Source: a virus. From it: 54,423 nucleotides of DNA. Positions 10,693-52,987 of the stretch are shown here, in pieces (position 1 is the first letter of the stretch; every line of letters begins with the position of its first letter). The notes below the pieces were generated by a model that had not been told where the DNA came from, did no database searches, and worked only from the letters and a program-made list of their open reading frames with translations. Position numbers and translations under genes: made by a program. The stretch is from positions 1 through 54,423 of the IMG/VR virus record IMGVR_UViG_3300017527_000330; one strand, written 5' to 3'.

Positions 10693-13464
10693 ATGGCAAA
10701 ATTTAAACGAGGGAATTTAAACCTCAAAACCGATAATAAAGTTATTTTAAGCACTACGCTTGAAACCTTTCTTAAATTTGATGGTGCGGCTTTATTACTT
10801 AATGCTCCAGGTTCGACGATACAGTTATCTTCAGATGACGTTATTATAGATGGAAGTTTAGCGTTAAGTCTTGGTACATCAATTAATGAATTTTCAATTG
10901 ATGGAACATTGGCTGGAGATTCAGATGATGCTATCCCAACTGAAAAAGCTGTTAAGACTTATGTTGATAACTCTACTGGTGGAGCAGTCAATCATAATTC
11001 AACTAGTGGTCTGCAAGGCGGAGATGCAACATCGATTGAATTCTATCACCTCACACAACAGATTCATGATCAAATAGATTCAACACCAACAACACTTCTA
11101 TTCTCTGGTGGTGTTAAAATAGATGGTCATTCCGCTATGGGAACTGCTGATATAGATTACCCAGGATTTCCAACATATGAAGCTATTTTAAGACTTGAAG
11201 AAACATTTGGAACTGGAGCTACTGGAGCTGGTAGTGGTATTACGATTAGTATAGAAAATCTTGCAGATGATGCATTTGTTTCTACAACTGGTATCAGTGC
11301 TGCTGTGCAAAATAGCACTTCAATTTTACATGGTGAAATGACTGGTGGTAGTTTCTTTGCTAACATAACAACTGATGGTGCTACGGTTACTACAATTACT
11401 GGAGTGAAAGGAAATGCAGCAGGTGTCTCAAACAATGCAACTATTACAAATGCCATTGGTGGAGATTTTTATACCGTCTCTTCATTTGGTGTGGTAAATT
11501 CTGTAGTTACTAATATGATGGCTGGACAATTCCAACTTCTCAAATGGGGAAGTGGGGATGTCAGTATTACAGATGGTTATGGAGTATTAATTAAAACTCC
11601 TAGTTTCACTCCAACAGGAACATCTACTAATTTATATGGTTTATATATTGAAGATCAATCAACAGTCGGGTTTATAAATGATTATAATCTATATTCTGCT
11701 GGTTCTGGCACTGAGAATAAATTTGAAGGTAATGTTGAAATAGAAGGAAGTCTTACAGTAGACATTATCACTCCAACTGACTCTACCGCAGGTTTAACTA
11801 TTGTTGGAAATATTTATTGTGATGATCTATTTACATCTGGTGATACCATTCATGTTGGTTCTGGACAGATTAAATCTACAGCAGGGAATGTTGAACTGTA
11901 TTATACTGGAATTAAAGTATTTGAAACTGATTCAACTGGAATTATTGTAACTGGTGATGTTTCTATTGTACAAACTCCAACTGAACCAGAGCATGCAACA
12001 AATAAATCATACGTTGATTCATTAGTTGGTGGAGAAACATTCTCTGGTGTTGTTAGTATATCAGATGCCGCAGCAACAGTTGTCGTTGTCTTTGATACAC
12101 CACAGGTGGATGATAATTATTCAATAACCACGAATATTATTAACACTGTGGATTCACCTCCATCAATCTATGGTCACATGACCACAGCATTTGATGCAAA
12201 TGGTTTCACTGAGATATTCTCAGGTCCAATGGATTCAGGAAATTATGAGTTGCATTTCATCGTTTCTAGAAATGAATTGGAAAGTTCTAGCTCATCGACC
12301 AGTTCAAGTTCATCGAGTTCTAGTTCAAGTTCATCGAGTTCTAGTTCAAGTTTATCGAGTTCTAGTTCAAGTTCATCGAGCTCGTCAGAAAGCTCAAGCT
12401 CAAGTGAATCTGTCGACGATTCAACTGCTGGTTGCCCAATCACATATTACTTTGATGGATACTCAGCTGATGGAAATGAGTGGCAGAATCCTTCTAATAT
12501 GGTTGACGGTTCTCTATCAACAGCTGCCGCTGCACAACAGAGTTCTGAACCAGATAATCAGCTGTGTAACTCAAACACATGTCCAGGAACAGATCTTGGA
12601 GCCATATTCTCAGTAAGTATCAGAGCTTATGGAAATAAGGGTCAAACAGGAGCACCAACATTTACAATGCAACCAGTATTTACTGGAACACCTGGATTTG
12701 CATACGATCTTACAGTAAATGGTATAGGTTCTTTTCCAACTCCTCAATGGAGTAATTGGATAAACATCGAAGCTGACGCAGCAGGTCCAGGAACAGGAAA
12801 CTGGACGTGGACTGATGTTGTTAATTTGGGTGTTAAACTTAGATCAGTTTATTCATCATCTGGTCCAGGCGATGTTAATTCTATAAGAAAGGTCGAAATT
12901 AGAGTAAATTGTGGAAGCAGCTCTAGCTCAAGCTCAAGTTCATCAGTCAGTTCATCCAGTTCATCTTGTACTGCACAATATGTTGAGACAGCTGGGCCAG
13001 CGCATTGGACCACATTTGATGGTACTTGGGATGGCAGTAAATATGTAGGTACAGCCAACGGAAATTGGAAAATAACACTTATTAATCCAACTGGAACTCC
13101 GACATATCCAATATCGATCAGATTAACTGTTTATAATGATCCTGGTTGGAATCCACAGTTAAACTTAATTACCGTCAAGGATACAATGGGTAATGAAATA
13201 TACGACGACTCCACAGGAGGAATATTCTTAGCTGGTGATGGAGTACCAACTGAAATAGCTTTTACACCAACATATGTTAGTGATGGTGAAGCTGGTTTTT
13301 ATGACTTAGATGAGATTCATTTAGATGGTGGTGCTAATAAATTTTATATAACCAGTGTTGAATTATACGAAGACTGTGGTGGAAGCTCATTTAGTTCAAG
13401 TTCAACAAGCTCAAGCAGCTCAAGCAGCTCAAGCTTCTCAACTGAGGGTGAAGGTGAAGGTTAA
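10693..13464 (+). CDS. Tail fibre protein 2 with galactose-binding-like C-terminal domains
   Basis: A 923-aa protein starting MAKFKRGNLNLKT, an N-terminus shared with the third fibre (MAKFKNSNIELKT). This probably marks a common attachment domain. One copy of the PTEKAVKTYVD / LQGGDATSIEFYHLT module lies near residues 65-115. A block around CDDLFTSGDTIHVG is nearly identical to residues 80-100 of the first fibre. A poly-Ser tract (about 531-575) is followed by a domain with the pattern EWQNPSNMVDGSLST, which resembles discoidin/F5-F8-like carbohydrate-binding folds. A second Ser tract then leads to another beta-rich domain and a final Ser-rich tail. Function: host adhesion. The last 11 bases overlap the next gene. 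Confidence 0.8.
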   Translation: MAKFKRGNLNLKTDNKVILSTTLETFLKFDGAALLLNAPGSTIQLSSDDVIIDGSLALSLGTSINEFSIDGTLAGDSDDAIPTEKAVKTYVDNSTGGAVNHNSTSGLQGGDATSIEFYHLTQQIHDQIDSTPTTLLFSGGVKIDGHSAMGTADIDYPGFPTYEAILRLEETFGTGATGAGSGITISIENLADDAFVSTTGISAAVQNSTSILHGEMTGGSFFANITTDGATVTTITGVKGNAAGVSNNATITNAIGGDFYTVSSFGVVNSVVTNMMAGQFQLLKWGSGDVSITDGYGVLIKTPSFTPTGTSTNLYGLYIEDQSTVGFINDYNLYSAGSGTENKFEGNVEIEGSLTVDIITPTDSTAGLTIVGNIYCDDLFTSGDTIHVGSGQIKSTAGNVELYYTGIKVFETDSTGIIVTGDVSIVQTPTEPEHATNKSYVDSLVGGETFSGVVSISDAAATVVVVFDTPQVDDNYSITTNIINTVDSPPSIYGHMTTAFDANGFTEIFSGPMDSGNYELHFIVSRNELESSSSSTSSSSSSSSSSSSSSSSSLSSSSSSSSSSSESSSSSESVDDSTAGCPITYYFDGYSADGNEWQNPSNMVDGSLSTAAAAQQSSEPDNQLCNSNTCPGTDLGAIFSVSIRAYGNKGQTGAPTFTMQPVFTGTPGFAYDLTVNGIGSFPTPQWSNWINIEADAAGPGTGNWTWTDVVNLGVKLRSVYSSSGPGDVNSIRKVEIRVNCGSSSSSSSSSSVSSSSSSCTAQYVETAGPAHWTTFDGTWDGSKYVGTANGNWKITLINPTGTPTYPISIRLTVYNDPGWNPQLNLITVKDTMGNEIYDDSTGGIFLAGDGVPTEIAFTPTYVSDGEAGFYDLDEIHLDGGANKFYITSVELYEDCGGSSFSSSSTSSSSSSSSSFSTEGEGEG
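12283..12408 (+). repeat. Poly-serine coding repeat in fibre 2
   Basis: Repeated AGTTCAAGTTCATCG units encode an almost pure serine linker of about 40 residues. Shorter Ser tracts occur in the same gene at about 12914-12966 and 13381-13440, each at a domain boundary. Confidence 0.8.
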
Positions 13465-14059
13465 AAAACTGTTAATGCTAAGTTGTGGTATCGACTCCAC
13501 ATACTTAGCATGGAAAATGGTAATGGATAAAACTCCAGATCTTCATTTTCATCACGTATCACTGAGGACAAGAGAACCACTATGGAAAAAACAAGATGAA
13601 CGTGTAGAACCCATTCTTTCTTATTTAAGAGAGATTCACGATTTTGAATATACTGAATCTATGTTCGAATATTCTTATCCTCACATGGGTTTTGATAGTG
13701 ATTTGTTGCTTTTAGTAGCTCAAAAAGTCTGTCAGATGTTCAGTCATTTCAAATGGATAGAAGTTTATATGGGATGGAATCCAACAGATATGACCAGAAG
13801 GCTGGTGGCTGATAGGGCTAAAAGAAACGTAACACCTAACATATGGTCTGCTCTTGTTGAAAGCGCTAGGAATAGACAGTACATCGATCATAAATTACAC
13901 TTTCCTTTAATTGAACAAAATATTGTTAAGATAGACATGATGAAAGAAATACCAAAGAAATTATTGGATTTGACATGGAGTTGTCGAAATGCAAACAATT
14001 GTGGAATATGTCAGACCTGTAAAGATATAGAACAAGCCAAAAAAATAATCGGCTCTTAA
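13454..14059 (+). CDS. queC: QueC-like 7-cyano-7-deazaguanine synthase
   Basis: With the GTG start chosen here the protein is 201 aa. It has a PP-loop ATP-pyrophosphatase motif LSCGIDST (residues 9-16) and a C-terminal zinc site Cys177, Cys183, Cys186, Cys189 in the form CGICQTC, the arrangement that distinguishes QueC from other PP-loop enzymes. QueC converts 7-carboxy-7-deazaguanine to preQ0 using ATP and ammonia. One oddity is that the usual SGG of the PP-loop is SCG here. The start is set by GAGGG 5 bases upstream of GTG 13454. GTG 13448 is an alternative, and the frame stays open further upstream, but only in the shadow of the fibre gene. The gene overlaps the end of fibre 2 and is probably translationally coupled to it. 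FolE2 at 42540-43376 catalyses the first step of the same pathway. Confidence 0.8.
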   Translation: MKVKKLLMLSCGIDSTYLAWKMVMDKTPDLHFHHVSLRTREPLWKKQDERVEPILSYLREIHDFEYTESMFEYSYPHMGFDSDLLLLVAQKVCQMFSHFKWIEVYMGWNPTDMTRRLVADRAKRNVTPNIWSALVESARNRQYIDHKLHFPLIEQNIVKIDMMKEIPKKLLDLTWSCRNANNCGICQTCKDIEQAKKIIGS

Positions 14060-42539: not shown

Positions 42540-43376
42540 CTAAATATAGGTAGTTTCGTTGAAACCACCCTTCTTCCCTTTCCAATTTATTGCTATAGCA
42601 TTAGATGTATGTATTGATTCTTCGTGGGTACATTTCACAAACCAGTCGATAATGTCTTTGGTAATTTCCAATCTATGAGATATTTCTCTGATAGAATCTT
42701 CAACAAATTGTGGATAACTTTTAGCTGTCCCCGCAATCCATTTTTCATCACCCCTTTTGATTATTGGGTAAGGTATTGTTCTAACAGCGTTCTCCACCAA
42801 ATCAATAATATCTTCTAACCATACATACGCTCTTGGGTGTGTTTCGAGAAGTACATCAGCAAATGCTCTTTGAGCATGTGGATAACCATACTTACCTTCT
42901 TCAGTTAATGCCGCTGAACAAGGGCAATATGCTGAGTATTGAACTCTAACACTTTCATAAAACTTGAATTTCTTTTCAGTATAAACACTTTTGAAACTGC
43001 ATTTATAATACTGTGGAAATTCATTATTTGATAATGGTGACTTTTTTATCTTTGGTATTTTGAATTTAAATTTTATCGATGCAGTTGGTGAATCCATTGC
43101 ATACGTAAAATCTTTAAGTATACGTTCTATTGTGGTTCTTTTAAGAGGTTCTGTTAAATATTTTTGCAAGATTCTTATAAATCTTGACATGGATATACCT
43201 CTTATACTTTTATCGAGTTTACAGACCATCTCGGTTTTTGCATGGACCTGACAGGAGCCAGGAATCCCGTCCCTCAACATTAAGAAGAACGGGATTTCGA
43301 CATTATCAACGCCAACCCGATGTATCACCAAACTACGATTTGGTCTTTCGTTTTGGATATCAGGTAGATAGTCCAT
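42540..43376 (-). CDS. folE2: GTP cyclohydrolase IB (FolE2/MptA type)
   Basis: A 278-aa protein. The start MDYLPDIQNE is the usual FolE2 beginning (LPDxQ), followed by VGVDNVEIPF (21-30), RGISMSRF (59-66) and the active-site region YCPCSAAL (150-157) with the downstream PHAQRAF (166-172). The Cys of CPCS and the His of HxQR are the metal/catalytic residues of type IB cyclohydrolases. It converts GTP to 7,8-dihydroneopterin triphosphate, the entry to folate and 7-deazaguanine synthesis. ATG 43376 has GGAG 6 bases upstream, inside the end of the RNA polymerase beta gene, so the two genes overlap by 17 bases. Together with QueC at 13454 it indicates a deazaguanine pathway. Confidence 0.9.
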   Translation of the reverse strand: MDYLPDIQNERPNRSLVIHRVGVDNVEIPFFLMLRDGIPGSCQVHAKTEMVCKLDKSIRGISMSRFIRILQKYLTEPLKRTTIERILKDFTYAMDSPTASIKFKFKIPKIKKSPLSNNEFPQYYKCSFKSVYTEKKFKFYESVRVQYSAYCPCSAALTEEGKYGYPHAQRAFADVLLETHPRAYVWLEDIIDLVENAVRTIPYPIIKRGDEKWIAGTAKSYPQFVEDSIREISHRLEITKDIIDWFVKCTHEESIHTSNAIAINWKGKKGGFNETTYI

Positions 43377-46300
43377 GGTAATCTCCATTGTGATCAACAC
43401 CTAAAACAGTAAGATACGAATTCAATAGTCTGACAGATTCTGGTATTGGATCTTTGATGTCTGTCTCTATAATATTCTTGGGATCTATAAGACCTTTTAT
43501 ATAAGTGTTTTTAGTGTCGAAACAATCTGATTTAAGTGTGAACATTTCGTATAGGTTTTTCATTGCATCATGACCAATGAAACATGCAGTCTCCATTTCA
43601 CCACAACGTTGTCCACCTTTATGTTTTCGTCCACCTAGAGGTTGCAGAGTACGTTTTGCATAAGAACCTATCCCTCTGGCGGCAAGTTTATCATCAGCAA
43701 TATGCGTCATGCGGAAGCAATATATATATCCAACTGACACTGGATTCGTCACATATTTCTGTGATGGTGGATCATAAACCCTATATTTGAACTGAGAGTT
43801 TGTATATTCCATTGCAGCTTTGAGATCTTCAACTTTGATACTTTCAAATGGTGGTTGGATCACTGAAAAGTTTTCGATCCATTCTTTATCAATCTCATCT
43901 GGAAACTGTTCGATGAACTGTTCCAAATACCACCCAGTTTCAGTCTTATCGATGATTCGTATAAATTCGATAAAGTAATCTCGGAGAGCTGCTATATCAT
44001 TATTTTCTAACATTGCCAAAGCTTGGGTTTTAAGATCATGGACTGCCATTCCCAAATGAAGTTCATACAATTGTCCAATATTCATTCGAGAAATTATACC
44101 CAATGGATTCACACAGATATCTAGGTGACGTCCATCTTCTAATCTTGGCATTTTATCTTCTGGCATGATCGTTGAAATGACACCTTTATTTCCATGACGA
44201 TTCCCAATTTTATCACCAACTTTGATTGGCTTCATTTGAATTCCGTACATTTCAACATGGATTCCATCGATCTTTTCTTTCTTCATTTTATATTTACCAA
44301 CATTATTGAAATGAAGATGATCTTTGATGAAATCTGTAGCTATATCTTCTGGCAACTTGCTTTCAACAATCTTCTTGAGTTTATCTTGTTCGTCCTGTTG
44401 CTTTTGTAGGAATTTTTCGATCCACTCTCTATAGATTGGAACTTCCTCATTCCACGCATTTGCATATATATTAACGTCAGTGATGATAACACGTTTAGCA
44501 GTTTCCAGAATTGTTGGTTCATGAAAAGACGAGAAATGATCTTCTATTGTTAATTTCTGCATCTTGGCGTATACAGCTCCAGGTTCCAACTGAGAGTTGG
44601 GTGTTGGGAGCGGTTCATACACATTATGGCGTCCAAGGCGGTCCAGTAAAACTCTGTCAGGTTTCATTGTAAAAGATAGATCGACAAAGTGTACTGATGT
44701 TAGGGCTTCGCTTTCAAAAAGCCTATCTGATATAACAATACCATCCTCATAATTATATCCATAATGAATCATGATTCCTGCTAAAAGATTTTTACCAAAG
44801 ACTATATTTCCATCCTGGCAATAATCGCTTTCCGCCAGTATGTCACCAGCTTTAAACTTTTCACCTTCGTTAAAATACGTCCTCATGATATCGATATTTT
44901 GGACGTATATCTTTCGACTGGAAACATCAAAGACATCTCCAGTTCCATCGTCATAAAGTACAACCATGTGTCTTTGTGATAAATATAAAACCTCTCCACT
45001 TTTTGGTGCTATCTTAATGAAGTCAGTATACTTTGTGTATAGGTGTTCACAACCTGATTGAATCATAGGTTTGTCAAATGTCTTCAAAAGAATCGCTTGC
45101 CTCATTTGTGATGATGCCATTTGAAGTCTGGTCTGGTCATCATGCTCACAGAAAGGTGTGAATGAAACAGGTATGGAAATAGGTTGTTTCTCACAGTATT
45201 CGTCCGTGAAGCGCATGTTTTCATCCAGTGGGACGTTAGGTATTAGATTCTGAAGAACACCACAATTCTCCCTATCAGGCGTGTCTACAGGGCACATTCT
45301 GCCAAACATTGTTGGATAGATATCACGCAGATGTCTTGGTATATTTTCTCGCTTAAAACCGCCTGGACCGAGCAGACTTGCACGACTTAATTTCGTTAGC
45401 TTATCTATTGGATTAATACTGAAATCAAACTGTACGATCTCAGATACGTTGCAAGATGTGATCAGTTGTTTCGTGTTGGTATTAAACTTTGGTTTTCGAA
45501 CATCTCTATTGCTTAAACACATGTCGAAAATTATTTTACAGACATTGCTATAGATAGCATATTCAAAACATCGTACTCTTTTATTTTTAAGGATTGTGTC
45601 ATCTTGCTCACCACGTTTCAAAGCGATGATTATATCTTCAAGAACCGATCCTGTCTGCAAAAATTCTCTTGTGAATATATCGACCTTTGGAATAAGATCA
45701 AGAGAATATATAATGTCATTTCCTTTTGGGATTGTATTATATTTGGTGTAATGTCGTCCCAACTCCTTGATGAAATCATCTTGGGTATATCCAATTGATT
45801 CGTCGAGATACATCTTGATATCAAATAAGAATTTATCATAGATGTTATCCTCGGGTTGATCTTGTCCGATTATCGTTTCTAGATCCTCTTTCATCATTTC
45901 TTTGACAATTTCTGGACCATAAAACGACATCATGATCAATCCAAGTGGAACTCGTTTTCCCAAGTAGCCACACATGACGTATGGCATGTCTTTGGTTGGG
46001 TATACTAACAATGTACCAACATTGGTTCTCATCTTCAACGTTTCGCCTCTCATAACAATTGGAATATCAAAGAGTTGAAACAATGGAACCTTTTTTCTAC
46101 CATTGATGAATAAGTAGTTATTATCTATGAGTTTTGGAATATAAAGTTTTAATTCTATCTGAGATGAGCCCTTCGAAAATTTCATATGTAAGATTGAATA
46201 CAAAGTTTTCGAGAGCTCACCTTTTATGTTGCGTGAGCTCTTTATCTCAACTTTATCAATCGCAAACCCGATTTCTCCGACAGGCTGAACTATTTCCTGG

Positions 46301-46395
46301 ACAACAGGAAGAATTCTTTCGTAATCTCTTCTTCGTAATGTGAAGATGTTATTCTCTTCATCCCTAATCTTGTAATTTGGGTTTATTAAATTCAA
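43360..46395 (-). CDS. rpoB: RNA polymerase beta subunit, unsplit
   Basis: A 1011-aa protein with a TTG start behind AGGAGGGAA. Beta-subunit landmarks appear in order: SLLGPGGFKRE (340-350), MCPVDTPDRENCG (367-379), HYGYNYEDGIVISD, KVGDKIGNRHGNKGVIS, NPLGIISRMNIGQLYE, and near the end GGRKHKGGQRCGEME. All belong to conserved catalytic regions, so the protein should be active. It is shorter than E. coli RpoB (1342 aa) but not split, unlike the beta parts of phiKZ- and AR9-type phages. At the rifampicin site the E. coli Ser531 position is kept (Ser340), but the His526 position aligns with Lys335, which predicts poor drug binding. Confidence 0.95.
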   Translation of the reverse strand: MNLINPNYKIRDEENNIFTLRRRDYERILPVVQEIVQPVGEIGFAIDKVEIKSSRNIKGELSKTLYSILHMKFSKGSSQIELKLYIPKLIDNNYLFINGRKKVPLFQLFDIPIVMRGETLKMRTNVGTLLVYPTKDMPYVMCGYLGKRVPLGLIMMSFYGPEIVKEMMKEDLETIIGQDQPEDNIYDKFLFDIKMYLDESIGYTQDDFIKELGRHYTKYNTIPKGNDIIYSLDLIPKVDIFTREFLQTGSVLEDIIIALKRGEQDDTILKNKRVRCFEYAIYSNVCKIIFDMCLSNRDVRKPKFNTNTKQLITSCNVSEIVQFDFSINPIDKLTKLSRASLLGPGGFKRENIPRHLRDIYPTMFGRMCPVDTPDRENCGVLQNLIPNVPLDENMRFTDEYCEKQPISIPVSFTPFCEHDDQTRLQMASSQMRQAILLKTFDKPMIQSGCEHLYTKYTDFIKIAPKSGEVLYLSQRHMVVLYDDGTGDVFDVSSRKIYVQNIDIMRTYFNEGEKFKAGDILAESDYCQDGNIVFGKNLLAGIMIHYGYNYEDGIVISDRLFESEALTSVHFVDLSFTMKPDRVLLDRLGRHNVYEPLPTPNSQLEPGAVYAKMQKLTIEDHFSSFHEPTILETAKRVIITDVNIYANAWNEEVPIYREWIEKFLQKQQDEQDKLKKIVESKLPEDIATDFIKDHLHFNNVGKYKMKKEKIDGIHVEMYGIQMKPIKVGDKIGNRHGNKGVISTIMPEDKMPRLEDGRHLDICVNPLGIISRMNIGQLYELHLGMAVHDLKTQALAMLENNDIAALRDYFIEFIRIIDKTETGWYLEQFIEQFPDEIDKEWIENFSVIQPPFESIKVEDLKAAMEYTNSQFKYRVYDPPSQKYVTNPVSVGYIYCFRMTHIADDKLAARGIGSYAKRTLQPLGGRKHKGGQRCGEMETACFIGHDAMKNLYEMFTLKSDCFDTKNTYIKGLIDPKNIIETDIKDPIPESVRLLNSYLTVLGVDHNGDYHGLST

Positions 46396-46419: not shown

Positions 46420-49074
46420 TTATACTTTTTCGCCTCTTAATATAGCATCCATAATCCCTGAATAATTACCAGAGTTTATGATACCGTGTAGAATGCTTTT
46501 TCTTGGATTGGAAAAAGACATTGCCAATAACCAACTTTCCTGATCTGGCACTGATTGAATGCTGTGGAACTTTGGTTGATATTTATGTCTCTCTGGATGC
46601 AGTCTCCATTTTTTCATACCGACCCACATCAATTGAGCAACAACACATTCGTAGTGAACTTGAAATACGTTTCTATCATATACAGAGAATAGATTATGCA
46701 CCAAGTCTTCACACGTGGTATCTTTATCAAACTTATGCAACATTGTTGATACCGAAGAAAGATCACCAATGATGTCTTCCTGTTTCATATCTTTTTTGTC
46801 TGTGCTGTTTTTAATGATCGCTGATCCAGATGTATGGAAGGTTCGTAGAACGAGTTGGGTCGACTTCTCACCGAGAGTCTGAGCAGCAATAATTCCAATA
46901 TATGAGCTGTTCAATGTTTTATGAGACTCTCCGTAACATGCTCTACAAACTTTATCATCTTTGCAATATATTGGACTTCTAATTTTTATCTTTGTACCTA
47001 TGAACATGTCACAATTATCTCTTGTGATTAAAAGTCCATCTTTCGTCCAGCGGTTTACTAAAGATTCCGCTTTCTTTGCATCTGTCACTTCTACTTCAAG
47101 ACAATCCTCTGTTCCGCAATTGTCTATATCGGATAATTGAAGATTGGCACATGTAAATATAAGTTTTCTTGATAGATATCCAGAGGTTCCAGTGTTGAGA
47201 GCTGTATCCAACAATCCTTTTCGACAACCATAAGTTGAATCGAAAAACTCCGATTGTGTTAACCCATCTGTTAGATTATTGATGATAGGTTTATCATGAA
47301 TTTCTCCGCTAAAGTTTGAGATATATCCACGAGACAAACACAGCTGACGAGCTTGATCCCAACTACCACGAGCACCAGATTCAATCAAGTAGGCATACCT
47401 GAAATTATCTCTAAGAAATTGTATCACGTCTTCTGAACTAGACCTTCTTAAAGATTCGTATATGTCTCCAGTGTCGTAAATATGCTCCTTTACTTTATCA
47501 ACATCTTCTATCAAAAAGTCGTCCAATGCTAAAGTGCATCCTGATAGTGTTGAATAGTAAAATCCCTTCTTCTTTATCATATCCAATGTGTCAACGATAC
47601 TTTCTGGATAGCCTATTCGCACCTCGTCCAATATCTGTATTAAGCGCTTTTCGTTGACTGTACCCTTTACTGGTGGGTATCCATCAGGTAGCAATGAATT
47701 GAAATAGTCAATACCACTGAAATCATCCGTATCAAACTTACCATTGGTTAAGAAATAAATCCCCAACACAATATCCTGACTTGGCAATGTGGTTAACTGC
47801 TCATTAGCAGGGCTGACTAAATTCTTTGTGACAAACATCTTATCTTTAACTTCTTGAATCGTTTCTTCGGACAGTGGAATATACATGGCCATCTGATCAC
47901 CATCGAAGTCTGCATTAAACGGATGGCAGATTAATGGATGAACTTTGATAACCGAGTCCTTGGAAACCAATATGTTAAATCCCAACATCCCCAACCTATG
48001 TAATGATGGCTGTCTGTTTAGGATACACACTTTACCTTTTATGATCTCTTCACAAATTGGCAATAATTTCAAATGATTAAACTTAATACATCTGTTGATA
48101 TACATCAGGGCTGTTGGCAATTTCTTGAACATACCTAACCCGATGATTCGCTTGGCTATTTGTAGCTTAAAGATCTCCAAGATCATTTTGTATGGCAGTA
48201 CACATTGGTCAAGCGAGAGGGCTGGTTCTGGTACGATTACTGCACGTCCAGAAAAATCAATCCTTTTGCCTAGGATGTTCCCTCTTATCAAGCCTTCCTT
48301 TTTGGCAAGCTTCTCTAATATTTTTTCGTGTAACTCTTTAACATCTTTTTGTAAGTTTCTGAAGAAGGTGTAATAAATTGTTTTATCCCGAACTGCTTCC
48401 AAATGGGATGCTTGCATTACGTCCTTCTTATTTAATATCTGAATGTAATAGCGATTGATCTTATCCATTAACTGCTTTGATCCACTTTGAGTGGATGGAC
48501 GCAAGTCTGGTGGTAAGACAATGATCTCACGAATTAGAAAGTTATCTATATTCTTTACCAGCTTTCTCCAATTATCATCCTGTAAATCTTCATACATCAT
48601 TTCACTGAAAGTTTTAACAAGGACATGGATAGCTTCAGCTTTTTCGTACTTTGTTGCTGACTTTGGTATCTTCTCATCATCGTGGACAACAAATGTTTCA
48701 TCACCTATTACATATAGGATGCTCTTTTCATTTTTCATCAAATTATCTAAAGGAGTCTTAATTGCTTTACCACCCAATGATACAATCAAATCATACATGA
48801 GTGGATTGACGACAGGGATTGGGAGCACGATCTTTGCAAATCGTTTCCGTCTCTCATTACTATTTACGATGTCAACACCGCAGTCTTTACAATTACCTCC
48901 TGATTTTGAGATCCCGTAGTATGTACCACATTGACATGTATAGTTTTTTAAGGGACCGAATATCTGTTCCGAAAAGAGTCCTTCAGCATGAAAGAATCTC
49001 TTTTTAAATACTTTAACCGAAGTTATTGGTTGTAGTTCTTCACAAAATTTATTATAATCTAAAATATTTGGCAT
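46420..49074 (-). CDS. rpoC: RNA polymerase beta' subunit, unsplit
   Basis: An 884-aa protein. The start MPNILDYNKF at 49074 has GGAGG upstream; a longer reading from 49116 lies inside the preceding gene. Landmarks: an N-terminal zinc site with Cys47, Cys49, Cys62 and Cys65, LGKRIDFSGRAVI, the catalytic NADFDGDQ (387-394) with its three Asp residues, a bridge helix GARGSWDQARQL, STYGCRKGLLDTAL and SGYLSRKL, a second zinc site ending CRACYG, and the trigger-loop segment GEKSTQLVLRTFHTSG. It is much shorter than E. coli RpoC (1407 aa) but includes both catalytic halves in one chain. Its start overlaps the end of the E2-like gene by 16 bases. No sigma or alpha subunit is seen in the window. Confidence 0.95.
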   Translation of the reverse strand: MPNILDYNKFCEELQPITSVKVFKKRFFHAEGLFSEQIFGPLKNYTCQCGTYYGISKSGGNCKDCGVDIVNSNERRKRFAKIVLPIPVVNPLMYDLIVSLGGKAIKTPLDNLMKNEKSILYVIGDETFVVHDDEKIPKSATKYEKAEAIHVLVKTFSEMMYEDLQDDNWRKLVKNIDNFLIREIIVLPPDLRPSTQSGSKQLMDKINRYYIQILNKKDVMQASHLEAVRDKTIYYTFFRNLQKDVKELHEKILEKLAKKEGLIRGNILGKRIDFSGRAVIVPEPALSLDQCVLPYKMILEIFKLQIAKRIIGLGMFKKLPTALMYINRCIKFNHLKLLPICEEIIKGKVCILNRQPSLHRLGMLGFNILVSKDSVIKVHPLICHPFNADFDGDQMAMYIPLSEETIQEVKDKMFVTKNLVSPANEQLTTLPSQDIVLGIYFLTNGKFDTDDFSGIDYFNSLLPDGYPPVKGTVNEKRLIQILDEVRIGYPESIVDTLDMIKKKGFYYSTLSGCTLALDDFLIEDVDKVKEHIYDTGDIYESLRRSSSEDVIQFLRDNFRYAYLIESGARGSWDQARQLCLSRGYISNFSGEIHDKPIINNLTDGLTQSEFFDSTYGCRKGLLDTALNTGTSGYLSRKLIFTCANLQLSDIDNCGTEDCLEVEVTDAKKAESLVNRWTKDGLLITRDNCDMFIGTKIKIRSPIYCKDDKVCRACYGESHKTLNSSYIGIIAAQTLGEKSTQLVLRTFHTSGSAIIKNSTDKKDMKQEDIIGDLSSVSTMLHKFDKDTTCEDLVHNLFSVYDRNVFQVHYECVVAQLMWVGMKKWRLHPERHKYQPKFHSIQSVPDQESWLLAMSFSNPRKSILHGIINSGNYSGIMDAILRGEKV

Positions 49075-49511
49075 TGATTTCCTCCGTAAATTTCTTTTAG
49101 ACTTACTGAACGGCAAGCATCTGGAAGCTCATAACAATCATCTTCATTATATGTTCCAAGGCATATCACCAACGGTGCAATTAAATCTCTGTTGATTGGC
49201 ATACCTTTTAGTTTTCCCATACATACATAATTAGATACGGGGTCTTTATGAGGATGATGTTGATCTTCTCCAAGCTCGAGTTCCACTATATGTTTTCTTT
49301 GTACATCAGACATTAGACTAAATCTGGTCAACCTATATTTTTCACTCAGGTCCACCAAGTAAAATTCACCTTTATGTTGACAATGTGTTGGTTTAATAGA
49401 ACATTTAAATTGATATCTTATTCTTCCAGTAGAACATCCTATTACTGCTTTATCAAATTCAATCCACGTGTTTTCATTTCCAACTTTTAAATTGTTGAAT
49501 CTATTGGGCAT
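49059..49511 (-). CDS. E2-like (UBC-fold) conjugating protein
   Basis: A 150-aa protein. The key region is HHPHKDPVSNYVCMGKLKG (residues 85-103): HPH followed after eight residues by a Cys in a hydrophobic-Cys-Met-Gly setting. This resembles the HPH...CLG signature of prokaryotic E2-like proteins, with Cys97 as the likely catalytic residue. Strands before it (HIVELELGED) fit the UBC fold order. Its size is that of a minimal E2 domain. The start codon overlaps the stop of the second E1-like gene (TAATG). The call is mainly based on this motif plus the neighbours (two E1-like proteins, Ubl, JAB); fold prediction would settle it. I see no other close family match. Confidence 0.65.
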   Translation of the reverse strand: MPNRFNNLKVGNENTWIEFDKAVIGCSTGRIRYQFKCSIKPTHCQHKGEFYLVDLSEKYRLTRFSLMSDVQRKHIVELELGEDQHHPHKDPVSNYVCMGKLKGMPINRDLIAPLVICLGTYNEDDCYELPDACRSVSLKEIYGGNQCQIF

Positions 49512-50323
49512 TAAGCACCCCCGTATTCACGGAGATTATAAACATCAATGCATCCATCTTTTATATTCACCATATAGATACAATTATGTAGTAGCATTGC
49601 ATCCCGAAGAAATCCTATGGCTATAGAAAATGGAACGGTTTGTGGATAGTTGTGTTTGATATCTGGATTAAGTATCTTTCGAATGTTAATGTTATCACCG
49701 TCTCGAACATCATTTAAATCACTTGAAAAACAAGATGCTGACGCTATCTCTAAATGATTTTGAAGCACTGTATTCTTTTTCTGTTTAACTAAACATTTAA
49801 ATCCAGGTTCAACAGATTGAGTTGATAAAGGCATGTGAGTAGATAATTGATTCTTTTTTAAATATTGTATACCGTTTGACATTGTAACATCTTTTGCCAA
49901 ACGCCCCGCTTGAGATAATTCCTCCTTCTCAAGTTCAATTAAATACTTTCCAGGTTTGTCCTCATCAAATACAACTTCTTCGCAATCGATTCTGAGACTT
50001 TTACCAACAATTGAGAATTTCATATCGGTATCGATATTTCGATTTAAAACATCCCGACAATCGATCATCTCATCAACCGAAGGGAGGTCTATATCTTTAA
50101 TGTCTGCATTTACGGGAACGAATCTGCACTGTGAAATTTTGCTTTTAAGTGCGGTAACTTTCGGTTGGTTTACATCTATTTTGGTGTAGATCGAGTTTCT
50201 GAGATTTCTCTTTTCTACTATATCTGGGTCAACTGCGTAAATGGTATCAACGTGGTGTTGTAAATTACTCGCAATGTATCCACCAAGTGAACCGACCCCT
50301 ACGAGTCCGATTGTTTTTCTCAT
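49511..50323 (-). CDS. Second E1/ThiF-like protein, possibly non-canonical
   Basis: A 270-aa Rossmann-fold protein. The nucleotide-binding loop is GVGSLGG (residues 9-15), and VDPDIVEKRNLRNS (31-44) follows with the Asp pair and Asn-Leu-Arg that adenylate-forming E1/ThiF enzymes use. The second half lacks the cross-over Cys segment seen in the other E1-like protein; Cys residues are present (for example SASCFSS) but not in a recognised context. It may be an adenylating enzyme for another substrate, or a partner subunit, as in heterodimeric eukaryotic E1 enzymes. The C-terminus is YGGA. The start is separated from the Ubl gene by a 79-base gap with a hairpin. Confidence 0.75.
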   Translation of the reverse strand: MRKTIGLVGVGSLGGYIASNLQHHVDTIYAVDPDIVEKRNLRNSIYTKIDVNQPKVTALKSKISQCRFVPVNADIKDIDLPSVDEMIDCRDVLNRNIDTDMKFSIVGKSLRIDCEEVVFDEDKPGKYLIELEKEELSQAGRLAKDVTMSNGIQYLKKNQLSTHMPLSTQSVEPGFKCLVKQKKNTVLQNHLEIASASCFSSDLNDVRDGDNINIRKILNPDIKHNYPQTVPFSIAIGFLRDAMLLHNCIYMVNIKDGCIDVYNLREYGGA

Positions 50324-50402: not shown

Positions 50403-51032
50403 TTAGCAGCCCTTATCGTAGGCCTCGTTGACGAACTCGACAACATCGCCTTCCGCGATAATGTAATCATTGGTGACTTCCTCACCGTTGACGAGCACGA
50501 TACGAGCGTAAGGATTGACGTTGAGTACCTGACCCAAGGTTTTCTCTACTTCGTAGATGGACTTTCCAACGACAGGATAGTTGTTGGACATGCTACCAGA
50601 AGAGATGGTGACCGTGATGTTAGAAGCACTAACACCGCGAGAAATCATACCCTTGAATTCCAGATTCTGGATGTCTCCATCAAGAACCTTGCTTTCTTTC
50701 TTGGAAGGATTTCCCATGGCCTCAGCCATACCGTTGGGAGCTTCAGAAACTTCTTCCCAGGCTTCGTCAGGCTCAGTATTCCAATCTTCATTGTCATTGA
50801 AGTCGCTGTTGAGATCAGAGAACATGTTCTCATCACCATTATCATCACCAGCGTCTTCAAAAGAAGCCTGACCAGTGGACATAAAGTAATTCCACAGAGC
50901 CTGAATCAGAAAAGGCTTTTGTTTCTTGCTCAGTCCGACGAATTCAGGATTCTCGTCACCAAGGTCAACGACCATTCTGCGAAGAGATTCAACGTTCATT
51001 TCATTAAGTTCAGTCCAGGTAAATTTTTGCAT
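50403..51032 (-). CDS. Ubiquitin-like protein with SAP/Rho-N-like N-terminal domain
   Basis: A 209-aa protein. Residues 5-50 (WTELNEMNVESLRRMV, then LSKKQKPFLIQALWNYF) look like a small helix-extension-helix of SAP/Rho-N type, often nucleic-acid binding. Residues 58-96 are an acidic linker. Residues 138-209 form a beta-grasp domain of ThiS/MoaD type: ITVTISSG, a central helix, ARIVLVNGEEV, then IIAEGDVVEFV. The chain ends DKGC, with Gly-Cys where ubiquitin has Gly-Gly. ATG 51032 follows AAGGAG. Flanking E1-like genes, an E2-like gene and a JAB gene argue that it is conjugated. Three 60-base lines I counted in this gene are 42-48% GC, against 27-32% for two lines in the neighbouring E1 gene, so it may be highly expressed. 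Confidence 0.8.
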   Translation of the reverse strand: MQKFTWTELNEMNVESLRRMVVDLGDENPEFVGLSKKQKPFLIQALWNYFMSTGQASFEDAGDDNGDENMFSDLNSDFNDNEDWNTEPDEAWEEVSEAPNGMAEAMGNPSKKESKVLDGDIQNLEFKGMISRGVSASNITVTISSGSMSNNYPVVGKSIYEVEKTLGQVLNVNPYARIVLVNGEEVTNDYIIAEGDVVEFVNEAYDKGC

Positions 51033-51036
51033 TTGT

Positions 51037-51783
51037 TTAATTCTCCTTATTGATTTTTGGTTTTCTAATGTGGGAACCACATTGAAGTTTTTCAATATCA
51101 AAGTAGGCTTCGCCTATTTGATTATTTATATCTATGTTTCCGACTAACAAATTGTAATAGGCACATGACATAAGGGTAGCGACCATGATGTTTGTGAAAA
51201 GCAACTGAGGCGCTGATTCTTGTAGCTCCTCACATGACAATTCATAAGGTGCCTTATCGCGAGGATTCTCGATCTCGGGATGATAAGCACACAAATCAGC
51301 AGTGATCTCTTTACCAGCTATCTTCTGAAAGATTTGTATGTTACCAACTACGACATCGTTCCCTCCTGATATAAGTATAATATCATTCAAATTTTTACAG
51401 TGTTTCGAAACTATCGACCTTGTTTTATGATTGTCAACGCCCATGAAGACTGTATCACCTTCGACAAGATGTGTTTTCATATTGTCTCCAGATAGATATT
51501 CTTCAATACAATCAAAAGCAAAATTATCTAAAGTATATCCTGGAGGGACATACTTATCATACTCAGATTTTAATTCAAGCATTTTTATTCGTGCTTTGTT
51601 TCCGAGGTTCGTGAAATTTTGCCTTGGTCGATTTAACGAATCGTATGTATCTCCATCAATGCACGTGATGGTAATCTTCTTATTTTGCAGCATTGTAAAT
51701 CTGGCATACTTCGCTATAAACAGAACCAGCCATGATCCAATGCCACCCAATCCAATTATTTTTATGTTGGTATCTTTTGTCAT
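51037..51783 (-). CDS. E1/ThiF-like activating enzyme
   Basis: A 248-aa protein starting MTKDTNIKIIGLGGIGSW, with the ATP-binding loop GLGGIG (11-16), Asp43 and Asp45 in IDGD, NRPRQNF (51-57) matching the E1 Arg/Asn region, and GVDNHKTR (115-122). A Cys in LSCEELQESAPQ (Cys184) lies where the thioester or persulfide Cys of this family is expected, and the sequence around it resembles PRTRC-type ThiF proteins. It should adenylate the Ubl C-terminus. The start is one base after the stop of the JAB gene, and AAAGGAT serves as ribosome binding site. A longer reading exists upstream, but it lies inside the JAB gene and is not supported. Confidence 0.85.
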   Translation of the reverse strand: MTKDTNIKIIGLGGIGSWLVLFIAKYARFTMLQNKKITITCIDGDTYDSLNRPRQNFTNLGNKARIKMLELKSEYDKYVPPGYTLDNFAFDCIEEYLSGDNMKTHLVEGDTVFMGVDNHKTRSIVSKHCKNLNDIILISGGNDVVVGNIQIFQKIAGKEITADLCAYHPEIENPRDKAPYELSCEELQESAPQLLFTNIMVATLMSCAYYNLLVGNIDINNQIGEAYFDIEKLQCGSHIRKPKINKEN

Positions 51784-51784
51784 G

Positions 51785-52987
51785 TTATCCTTTGAGCGCC
51801 ATCGCGTCTTCCATGGTAAATTTCTGTGCTGCATGCTCAAGTTCACATGAAGGACAAATGTTTCTCTTTTCTGGATCATCAACAAAGAACGTAGTTCCAC
51901 AAGTACATTTGATTGAATTACTCAAAGCACTCTTCTTGATTGATTGGAATTCAGTGTATGACAGCGCCCTGTTCTTCCGCTTGACACCATCTTCATCTAT
52001 CTCTCCAGGTTGAAATGTGGGTTTATCATGTTCGAACATTCCACCCAAAGGTGCACTGAAGTCATGGTCACCATAATAAGGTGGTATATCCTGGTCAAGA
52101 TTAACTGGATCTAAATCATCTTCAAACTCAATATCCTCTAACAATGATTGAGTCTTCAACTCTTTGAACACACATTCCTCACAGGGTGCCAACTTTTTTC
52201 CAGTGTTAGTCTCCCCCATCTTATTCCAATCATCCCAATTAAACGTTGTTTGTTTTTGGGTTGCTGGAGCTGTGTATCCACTTCTGGCCCACATTGCTGT
52301 GTACATTGGTGTAACCAGCTTTTTATATTTTGGGATTTCAACAATAGTGCTTTCATCAAGGACTTGATACATATCTGATTGTTGCACTTTTTGTTTTGTC
52401 AGTCTAATACCTTCAATATAATGACATGGATCAACTAATATTCGCTTTCCGTTGACAACTACAGATGCAGATATCGAACAGAAAGGCAACTGAGTGACAT
52501 GTCCAACGGTGATATGCAACCCATCAAAATACCTCTCATCGTTTACATCTGTTCCAGAATGAAAAGCTCCAAAGTCTGCATGACTGTGTATTGTTCCGCA
52601 ATTTAGGTATGATGGACCAATAACTATATCGTATTTACAACCTCCACCACTCACTCTTTGGTGTGGAACCGTATAATCGATTTTCTTTAAATTTGGTTTT
52701 GTTGGGTGAGTCTTCAAATTCAAAATCGTTCCAGCTTCACTTCTGTGTTCCTTGAAGATCATACCGAAGAATCCAACAACTTCACCAAATGTTTTTGCCT
52801 TGATCTTTGGCAGATTCATTCTGGCATATTCTGGCAATACTTCACCCATGTCTATCGTTTGAACCTGTACCATTGAATCTATCAAACCTGTTTTCTTTTT
52901 AAGATAAATATGTTTTGACACAATGTAACATGCGTCATCTTCAGGTAAGACATCTGGCATCTTATCGAAATAATAAACTGGTATCAT
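51785..52987 (-). CDS. JAB/JAMM-domain peptidase with C-terminal zinc ribbon
   Basis: A 400-aa protein. The JAMM motif IHSHADFGAFHSGTD (133-147) gives His134, His136, Ser144 and Asp147 in the exact H-x-H-x7-S-x2-D pattern. A Glu around residues 80-84 may be the catalytic acid. The motif context (HSH...FHSGTD) is very like PRTRC protein A. After a linker with a Cys pair (CEEC), residues 361-381 hold a zinc ribbon, CTC and CPSC. JAMM peptidases cleave isopeptide bonds or mature Ubl C-termini. It is the first recognisable gene of the Ubl cassette and lies one base from the E1 gene. No signal peptide. Confidence 0.9.
   Translation of the reverse strand: MIPVYYFDKMPDVLPEDDACYIVSKHIYLKKKTGLIDSMVQVQTIDMGEVLPEYARMNLPKIKAKTFGEVVGFFGMIFKEHRSEAGTILNLKTHPTKPNLKKIDYTVPHQRVSGGGCKYDIVIGPSYLNCGTIHSHADFGAFHSGTDVNDERYFDGLHITVGHVTQLPFCSISASVVVNGKRILVDPCHYIEGIRLTKQKVQQSDMYQVLDESTIVEIPKYKKLVTPMYTAMWARSGYTAPATQKQTTFNWDDWNKMGETNTGKKLAPCEECVFKELKTQSLLEDIEFEDDLDPVNLDQDIPPYYGDHDFSAPLGGMFEHDKPTFQPGEIDEDGVKRKNRALSYTEFQSIKKSALSNSIKCTCGTTFFVDDPEKRNICPSCELEHAAQKFTMEDAMALKG

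Follow-up and report, generated by a model that had tools for sequence, protein, structure and literature searches.

Related ubiquitin-like systems

Conjugation by ubiquitin-like proteins (Ubls) in bacteria is known chiefly as a weapon against phages. In CBASS, the E1, E2 and JAB functions of Cap2 and Cap3 act on a single C-terminal Gly or Ala, and other single-Gly modifiers are known, e.g. Atg8 (both in the accessible part of PMC10097602). The CBASS modifier is a cGAS-like enzyme that has no ubiquitin fold, and Cap2 has E1 and E2 in one polypeptide; the phage cassette described here has a modifier with the ubiquitin fold, and its enzymes are encoded by separate genes. In phage lambda, the tail protein I is a Ubl that lies beside the JAB-containing protein K (accessible part of PMC1779556).

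In eukaryotes, polyubiquitin and the SUMO and NEDD8 precursors have residues past the last Gly and are sometimes in tandem, as are the phage proteins. The human UBB precursor ends in one extra Cys, and eukaryotic Ubl precursors are processed mostly by cysteine proteases. Eukaryotic modifiers end in diglycine, whereas the phage Ubls end in Lys-Gly.

The PRTRC cassette consists of a JAB protein (PRTRC_A), an E2-like protein (PRTRC_B), a ubiquitin-like protein (PRTRC_C) and PRTRC_ThiF, and the gene order B-A-ThiF is common to it and the phage operon. The cultured Bacillus phage KLEB27-3 has a gene annotated as hypothetical, gp199 (OM634661.1, 718-1422), which encodes four near-identical Ubl units and is found near PRTRC_B-, PRTRC_A- and PRTRC_ThiF-like genes. 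It scores 61 bits against the PRTRC_C cut-off of 45.95. These PRTRC_C-type units end in KG and are joined AGVKG/MART (the slash marks the joint), with seven residues after the last unit. In Salmonella phage Arash (OQ632216.1), a 66-amino acid open reading frame at 107-307 looks like a Ubl and ends in GTKG; it is in a different frame from the annotated gene at 102-320. A plasmid search with this Arash modifier gave no match.

In PubMed Central, a search that did not extend to most subscription papers, no paper on such phage systems was found, and nothing on KLEB27-3, Arash or CysO/JAMM. A survey of jumbo phages (PMC7824862) does not mention ThiF, JAB, Ubl or PRTRC in its accessible part.

Organization of the locus

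The window is the whole 54,423-base viral record IMGVR_UViG_3300017527_000330. The cassette and polymerase genes are on the minus strand (Table 1), and are transcribed in the order large protein, JAB, E1, Ubl, ThiF2, E2b, RNA polymerase beta' and beta. The Ubl open reading frame has 209 codons, starts with the ATG at 51032 and stops with the TAA at 50403-50405; the sequence AAGGAG sits immediately 5' of the ATG. The phages of this family are uncultured. When the Ubl was searched against proteins of cultured phages, the only two matches were chance ones, both to Gordonia phage Sour records (E 0.2).

Beside the polymerase genes is a FolE2 GTP cyclohydrolase (42540-43400, 3.2e-59); together with a weak QueC match at 13355-14059 (0.0043), it hints at 7-deazaguanine metabolism.

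Table 1. Features of the cassette and polymerase region, in positions of the window
Feature	Coordinates	Strand	Evidence
Rho_N-ubiquitin-like fusion (Ubl), 209 aa, ending DKGC	50403..51032	minus	
Rho_N/SAP-like N-terminal domain of Ubl, residues 1-53	50874..51032	minus	Fold model, profiles
Acidic disordered linker of Ubl, residues 54-137	50622..50873	minus	Low pLDDT, sequence
Beta-grasp (ubiquitin-like) domain of Ubl, residues 138-208, ending Lys-Gly	50409..50621	minus	VIA-align, alignment
Codon for optional terminal Cys of Ubl (TGC)	50406..50408	minus	
E1-like adenylating enzyme, ThiF family, PRTRC_ThiF-like	51037..51783	minus	Pfam ThiF 8.8e-10
JAB/JAMM metalloprotease with C-terminal Cys-rich part	51785..52987	minus	Active-site residues; Prok-JAB weak, 0.011
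Second E1-like protein, ThiF2	49511..50323	minus	Pfam ThiF 8.7e-9
Small E2-like protein, E2b, H-P-[N/H] ... C	49059..49511	minus	Motif, VIA-align
Large protein, C-terminal part only, cut by contig end	53043..54422	minus	E2 domain in relatives
RNA polymerase beta'-like subunit	46420..49074	minus	tblastn to annotated phage beta' genes, at most ~30% identity; synteny
RNA polymerase beta-like subunit	43360..46395	minus	Sequence, synteny; family by recognition, not profile search

Domain structure of the fusion protein

The initial annotation described the protein as a Ubl fused to an SAP/Rho-N-like domain, with a probable N-terminal domain, an acidic linker and then the beta-grasp domain, and proposed fold prediction as a check. 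An AlphaFold2 model built from 41 aligned sequences finds the N-terminal domain to be structured. It has three helices (residues 6-11, 14-27 and 39-53) and is confidently folded, with pLDDT mostly 93-98 over residues 1-53. Residues ~60-137 are without structure (pLDDT mostly below 55), and the beta-grasp domain is at ~138-207, its beta-beta-alpha-beta-beta elements spanning 141-202. The overall pTM of 0.36 is low, as expected for two domains joined by a flexible linker. Acidity of the linker is present in the window protein and its close relatives, but is absent from most other relatives; thus the three-part description fits the window protein, but the acidic linker is not general.

The beta-grasp domain aligns with the ISG15 C-terminal domain, ubiquitin, MoaD and TtuB with Z scores of 8.1-8.7 over 61-79 residues (VIA-align). 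The VIA-align matches listed are mostly ubiquitin, ISG15, SUMO, MoaD, TtuB and Ras-binding domains of the same fold; all rows listed belong to this one domain, and the N-terminal domain is absent among them. A Foldseek search gave no match at E of 0.001 or below for the Ubl model (best 1.6e-3). A hidden Markov model (HMM) of the ubiquitin-fold domain, built without the window's clade, matches the window Ubl with an E value of 2.8e-21.

The N-terminal domain is matched by Pfam Rho_N in 28 of the 41 aligned sequences (E up to 0.1, best 8.6e-10) and by Pfam SAP in three. The window Ubl itself is matched by neither, and the Rho_N evidence for this protein alone is modest. When PDB sequences are searched with a profile of 32 N-terminal domains, two Rho transcription termination factors rank first, with E values of 0.018 and 0.046. 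A further HMM, built from N-terminal domains of relatives outside the window's clade, has a sole match among the 793 stop-to-stop open reading frames of the window, and this is the Ubl (E 4.5e-8). By these comparisons, the window domain is homologous to the Rho_N-matching domains of its relatives, and the proposed fusion to an SAP/Rho-N-like domain is borne out by the fold and by the Rho_N profile in relatives. The likeness to Rho is in the N-terminal helical domain; the 209-amino acid phage protein lacks the ATPase part of Rho and has the domain fused to a modifier instead. With six basic and seven acidic residues, the window domain is about neutral in charge, which does not favour nucleic acid binding.

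Of the 63 phage Ubls whose N-terminus is present, 61 have the Rho_N domain. This count comprises 60 found by script and L005, whose domain is in its longer copy L003; L004 and L153, which have the N-terminus cut by contig ends, are outside it. The two Ubls without a Rho_N match are L044 and L165, and L044 is also the only viral Ubl whose fetched stretch contains no polymerase. In related cassettes from bacterial contigs, 0/15 Ubls have the domain. The fusion to this Rho_N-like domain is real and general in the phage lineage, and together with the polymerase linkage it is the interesting part of the locus.

At four loci (L146, 3058-3498; L147, 3149-3532; L150, 3783-4124; L177, 3149-3532), the E2-bearing large gene is directly preceded by a separate gene for a small protein that combines a Rho_N-like domain with an acidic tail and has no ubiquitin fold.

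The C-terminus and tandem precursors

The window open reading frame does end in DKGC, as initially annotated. Sixty-five distinct phage Ubl open reading frames, including that of the window, were compared at this end. They come from viral-contig scans with Ubl, E1 and beta' queries, plus L085 from a genome scan, and copies that share the last 120 residues were collapsed. The sequence X-Lys-Gly closes the beta-grasp domain in all 65 (63 by script; L155 and L156 by eye), and none of the domains ends in diglycine. Nothing follows the Lys-Gly in 41, Cys follows in 17, and seven have other tails: R, F, LL, LA, DRKGC, VILTK and one of 67 residues. Where a single residue is found after Lys-Gly, it is Cys in 17 of 19 Ubls. 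An alignment of homologues had been proposed to see if Gly-Cys is conserved; the Gly is invariant, but the Cys is not. Of the two outcomes named initially as refuting, a variable C-terminus without a conserved Gly and the lack of a structured N-terminal domain, neither occurred. The conserved Lys-Gly before the Cys is probably the working end of the modifier.

The distribution of the KGC end was followed on a 64-row beta' tree, which comprises loci that have both genes, a beta' score of at least 1000 bits and a Ubl end not already represented. KGC, scored in 18 rows with L022 (DRKGC) counted, requires 13 changes on this tree, at least 10 of them forced by well-supported branches. On a more careful 40-row tree, nine changes are required and at least six are forced. 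In the window's four-member clade, two members have Cys and two do not. As the Cys was gained or lost at least 10 times, it is not essential, and by the above counts it is favoured despite being dispensable. One possibility is that Cys is a small residue that the JAB removes well. Gly-Cys as a defining feature of the family was rejected; it is a minor, optional feature. Production of the Cys by read-through of a TGA stop is also not favoured, in that 22 of the 23 KG-ending loci stop at TAA or TAG, the exception being L044.

At one locus (L174, 6714-7730), two complete Rho_N-Ubl units are found in one frame, joined PAGRKG/ADETATS. If Ubls made in this polyubiquitin-like tandem form are to act as single units, a protease has to separate them. 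The joints in L174 and in KLEB27-3 gp199, which come after Lys-Gly, point to the JAB cutting at this position and suggest that Gly-Cys is a cap to be removed and does not reflect a new chemistry. This agrees with the initial suggestion of a need for JAB trimming, which is the natural reading of an extra residue on a protein whose gene lies in a cassette with a JAB. A second Ubl of the same family was searched for elsewhere in the genome and was not found in any of six records (6/6); the two matches per record in this search are the two halves of one gene.

Partner proteins

The JAB has the JAB/JAMM pattern E ... HxH-x7-S-x2-D, and residues E84, H134, H136, S144 and D147 are invariant in 40/40 sequences. 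The Prok-JAB match, weak in the window, is 5.6e-6 in the relative L007. In the E1, residues N51, R54, Q55, K63, D117 and C184 are likewise invariant in 40/40. The large upstream protein has an N-terminal Prok-E2_D (PRTRC_B-like) region in six of seven relatives tested (5e-5 to 5e-3); in the window, this region falls beyond the contig end.

E2b has an H and a C that are invariant in 40/40, and a P that is present in all but L071. In a wider set, the motif HPN-x8-C is found in 49/63; the eight non-matching rows shown have altered spacing or, in L163, HCN. The window protein has HPH. In VIA-align, a model of the L020 homologue has E2 enzymes or domains in all 50 rows listed, with middling Z scores (4.2-4.9); its best Foldseek E value is 0.1, and thus above the 0.001 threshold.

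ThiF2 keeps the nucleotide-binding glycines as well as D32, K55 and D88. Where the E1 motif is N-L-x-R-Q, ThiF2 has N-L-x-N (six rows checked), and without the RQ its adenylation activity is doubtful. ThiF2 matches PADLOC E1-E2 models (best 3.1e-8). Of 62 relatives, 61 have Ala as the final ThiF2 residue and 57 have Gly at position -3, at a fixed distance from the stop. A ribosome site of the next gene is unlikely to be the sole reason for this Gly/Ala end: loci that have ThiF2 codons GGC GCC and the next start elsewhere still keep Gly and Ala.

Linkage to the viral RNA polymerase

Eighty beta' loci, the best 80 of 97, were fetched, and the synteny count covers the 65 that have at least 7 kb upstream; the 15 with less upstream DNA were left out. 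At beta' scores of 1400 bits or more, all six cassette genes are found directly upstream of the polymerase in 55/55 loci, and in the same order, E2-JAB-E1-Ubl-ThiF2-E2b. The adjacency to a viral RNA polymerase, noted initially for the window, is therefore conserved in the close relatives. In the five loci at 1200-1400 bits, two have all six genes and three have JAB, E1 and Ubl; the remaining loci are L165, with four genes (all but ThiF2 and E2b), L162, with these two alone, and L160, with no cassette gene. Below 1200 bits, the JAB-E1-Ubl set is found in 0/5 loci. A search of whole records with an E1 alignment recovered the expected gene for L165 and a weak match (1.8e-5) for L162; the records of L160, L179, L164 and L182 gave no match. 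Since the cassette is absent beside some of the next-closest beta' genes, it is not a general requirement of the polymerase.

The Rho_N domain, ThiF2, E2b and polymerase linkage go together. Synteny and the presence of Rho_N are not independent tests, because these phages share one ancestry.

A contig binned in the MAG of a Thermoplasmatales archaeon (L085) has the full phage operon with Rho_N-Ubl and polymerase; its host assignment is uncertain.

Relationship to PRTRC and bacterial cassettes

The order B-A-ThiF of the phages KLEB27-3 and Arash is also that of the phage operon, the B gene of Arash having been recognized by eye only. The NCBIfam cut-offs are 101.8 bits for PRTRC_A, 131.45 for PRTRC_B, 144.75 for PRTRC_ThiF and 45.95 for PRTRC_C, and no phage-operon component tested passes them. 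Against PRTRC_A, the L007 JAB scores 45.5 bits (5.9e-12) and the window JAB 11.1 bits. The E1 is related to PRTRC_ThiF over its length, below the model cut-off (L007, 4.7e-9 and 35.9 bits; window, 1.3e-5 and 24.6 bits). The E2 region matches PRTRC_B and Prok-E2_D weakly (PRTRC_B, 16.8 bits in L020). There is no PRTRC_C match of the modifier, and no NCBIfam match of any kind for the window, L007 or L015 Ubl; a profile comparison of the Ubl with the KLEB27-3 and Arash units gives a probability of 32. As the cut-offs are not reached and a PRTRC_C match is lacking, the phage cassette is not filed under PRTRC. It also differs from PRTRC in that the modifier carries a Rho_N domain and follows the E1, and in that ThiF2, E2b and the RNA polymerase are added.

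Relatives of the E1 are also found in 22 loci other than L085 on bacterial contigs (L086-L107; NC10, Planctomycetota, Verrucomicrobia and others), which may include misbinned viral contigs. Many have four-gene E2-JAB-E1-Ubl cassettes whose E1, JAB and Ubl are homologous to those of the phage operon and often follow its gene order. The bacterial Ubls keep [K/N]G in 15/15, most with varied tails. The 22 loci differ in that neither E2b nor a polymerase was matched in them, and ThiF2 only twice and weakly.

Proposed function

From these comparisons, it appears reasonably likely that the gene encodes the modifier of a phage-borne Ubl conjugation system that uses a JAB/E1/E2 route, with the Rho_N domain aiming it at transcription. 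The JAB would cut after Lys-Gly and so remove the Cys where present and separate tandem units. The neighbouring E1 would activate the C-terminal Gly, as an adenylate and then probably as a thioester at Cys184, and an E2-like protein would pass the modifier to its target. A lone C-terminal Gly should be no obstacle, since CBASS uses a single Gly or Ala. The JAB is kept where the Ubl ends at Gly, and therefore it presumably also strips the modifier from targets.

The most likely role of the Rho_N-like domain, which occurs where cassette and viral RNA polymerase are linked, is to keep the modifier, free or conjugated, on RNA, DNA or the polymerase; the initial annotation had likewise proposed that it would bring conjugates to DNA or RNA, possibly to the polymerase. 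The transcription machinery, viral or host, is thus the best candidate for the target. The aiming role and the target, both of which we infer, are the weakest steps of the explanation. The best reading of the locus is that a PRTRC-like conjugation system became permanently associated with a viral RNA polymerase. Here it is the phages that own a complete-looking system, with a JAB, two E1-like and two E2-like proteins, beside the polymerase in all 55 close relatives.

A bolder proposal, which is tentative and rather doubtful, is that a whole lineage of large phages has a Ubl system dedicated to transcription, a covalent on/off switch reversible by the JAB. Rho_N would dock the modifier on a transcription complex of the phage or its host, polymerase subunits or factors bound to them would receive it from the two E1/E2 pairs, and the JAB would take it off again. 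If transcription complexes are modified, this would be a new mode of viral transcription control, and the tandem precursors would be a counterpart, in viruses of bacteria, of polyubiquitin processing.

Alternative explanations

The Ubl could instead be a sulfur carrier, with a Gly end that becomes a thiocarboxylate, a Gly-Cys akin to CysO-cysteine and a sulfur product such as a modified nucleotide. The E1 is of the ThiF/MoeB type, the fold of the Ubl matches not only ISG15 but also MoaD and TtuB, and the window has FolE2 and the weak QueC match. In the CysO pathway, the JAMM protease Mec+ hydrolyses the CysO-cysteine adduct, so that Gly-Cys is a cleavage point there. But the operon keeps two E2-like proteins that sulfur carriers do not need, the Pfam matches of the cassette proteins (E1s and JAB) include no rhodanese domain, and the tandem precursors better fit a protein modifier; a sulfur carrier is thus quite improbable. 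Sulfur transfer that depends on the Cys, which the initial annotation had raised, also finds the Cys missing from most relatives while the cassette genes are kept. The same evidence bears on another suggestion made there, of a different activation chemistry. A terminal Cys acting as a working thiol, by acyl shift to a thioester or in a metal or redox role, could alter activation, and the lone residue after Lys-Gly is Cys more uniformly (17/19) than expected of a neutral residue. Yet 41 of 65 Ubls end at Gly, and at least 10 forced switches, including those in the window's own clade, took place while the E1, the JAB and both E2-like genes stayed. This makes a working thiol extremely improbable.

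Two other alternatives keep the modifier and change its target. Head or tail proteins, or a packaged polymerase, might be tagged for virion assembly, with Rho_N binding packaged nucleic acid. In Arash, the PRTRC-type E1 (gp246) and gp248, which is E2-like by eye and without an NCBIfam match, are annotated as 'structural protein', and phage lambda also has a Ubl, its tail protein I, beside a JAB peptidase (accessible part of PMC1779556). We regard a virion role as unlikely: no paper naming Arash was found in PubMed Central to ground its annotation, and in the window's group it is polymerase genes that are the neighbours. The modifier might also serve in counter-defence, disabling host proteins or competing with host Ubl defences such as Bil and CBASS. 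Host systems of this type act on phages (accessible parts of PMC10097602 and, for Bil as cited there, PMC12660748), and ThiF2 has its match to PADLOC E1-E2 models. The presence of the cassette in fixed order in 55/55 close relatives speaks against counter-defence and leaves it of quite low probability. Anti-defence genes are usually patchy in distribution.

Under the bolder proposal above of a system dedicated to transcription, ThiF2 may itself be a second conjugated partner, by analogy with the CBASS cGAS, whose C-terminal Gly/Ala its own C-terminal Gly/Ala recalls. The polymerase relative L162, which has ThiF2 and E2b and no E1, JAB or Ubl within 10 kb, suggests that ThiF2-E2b can be a module of its own.
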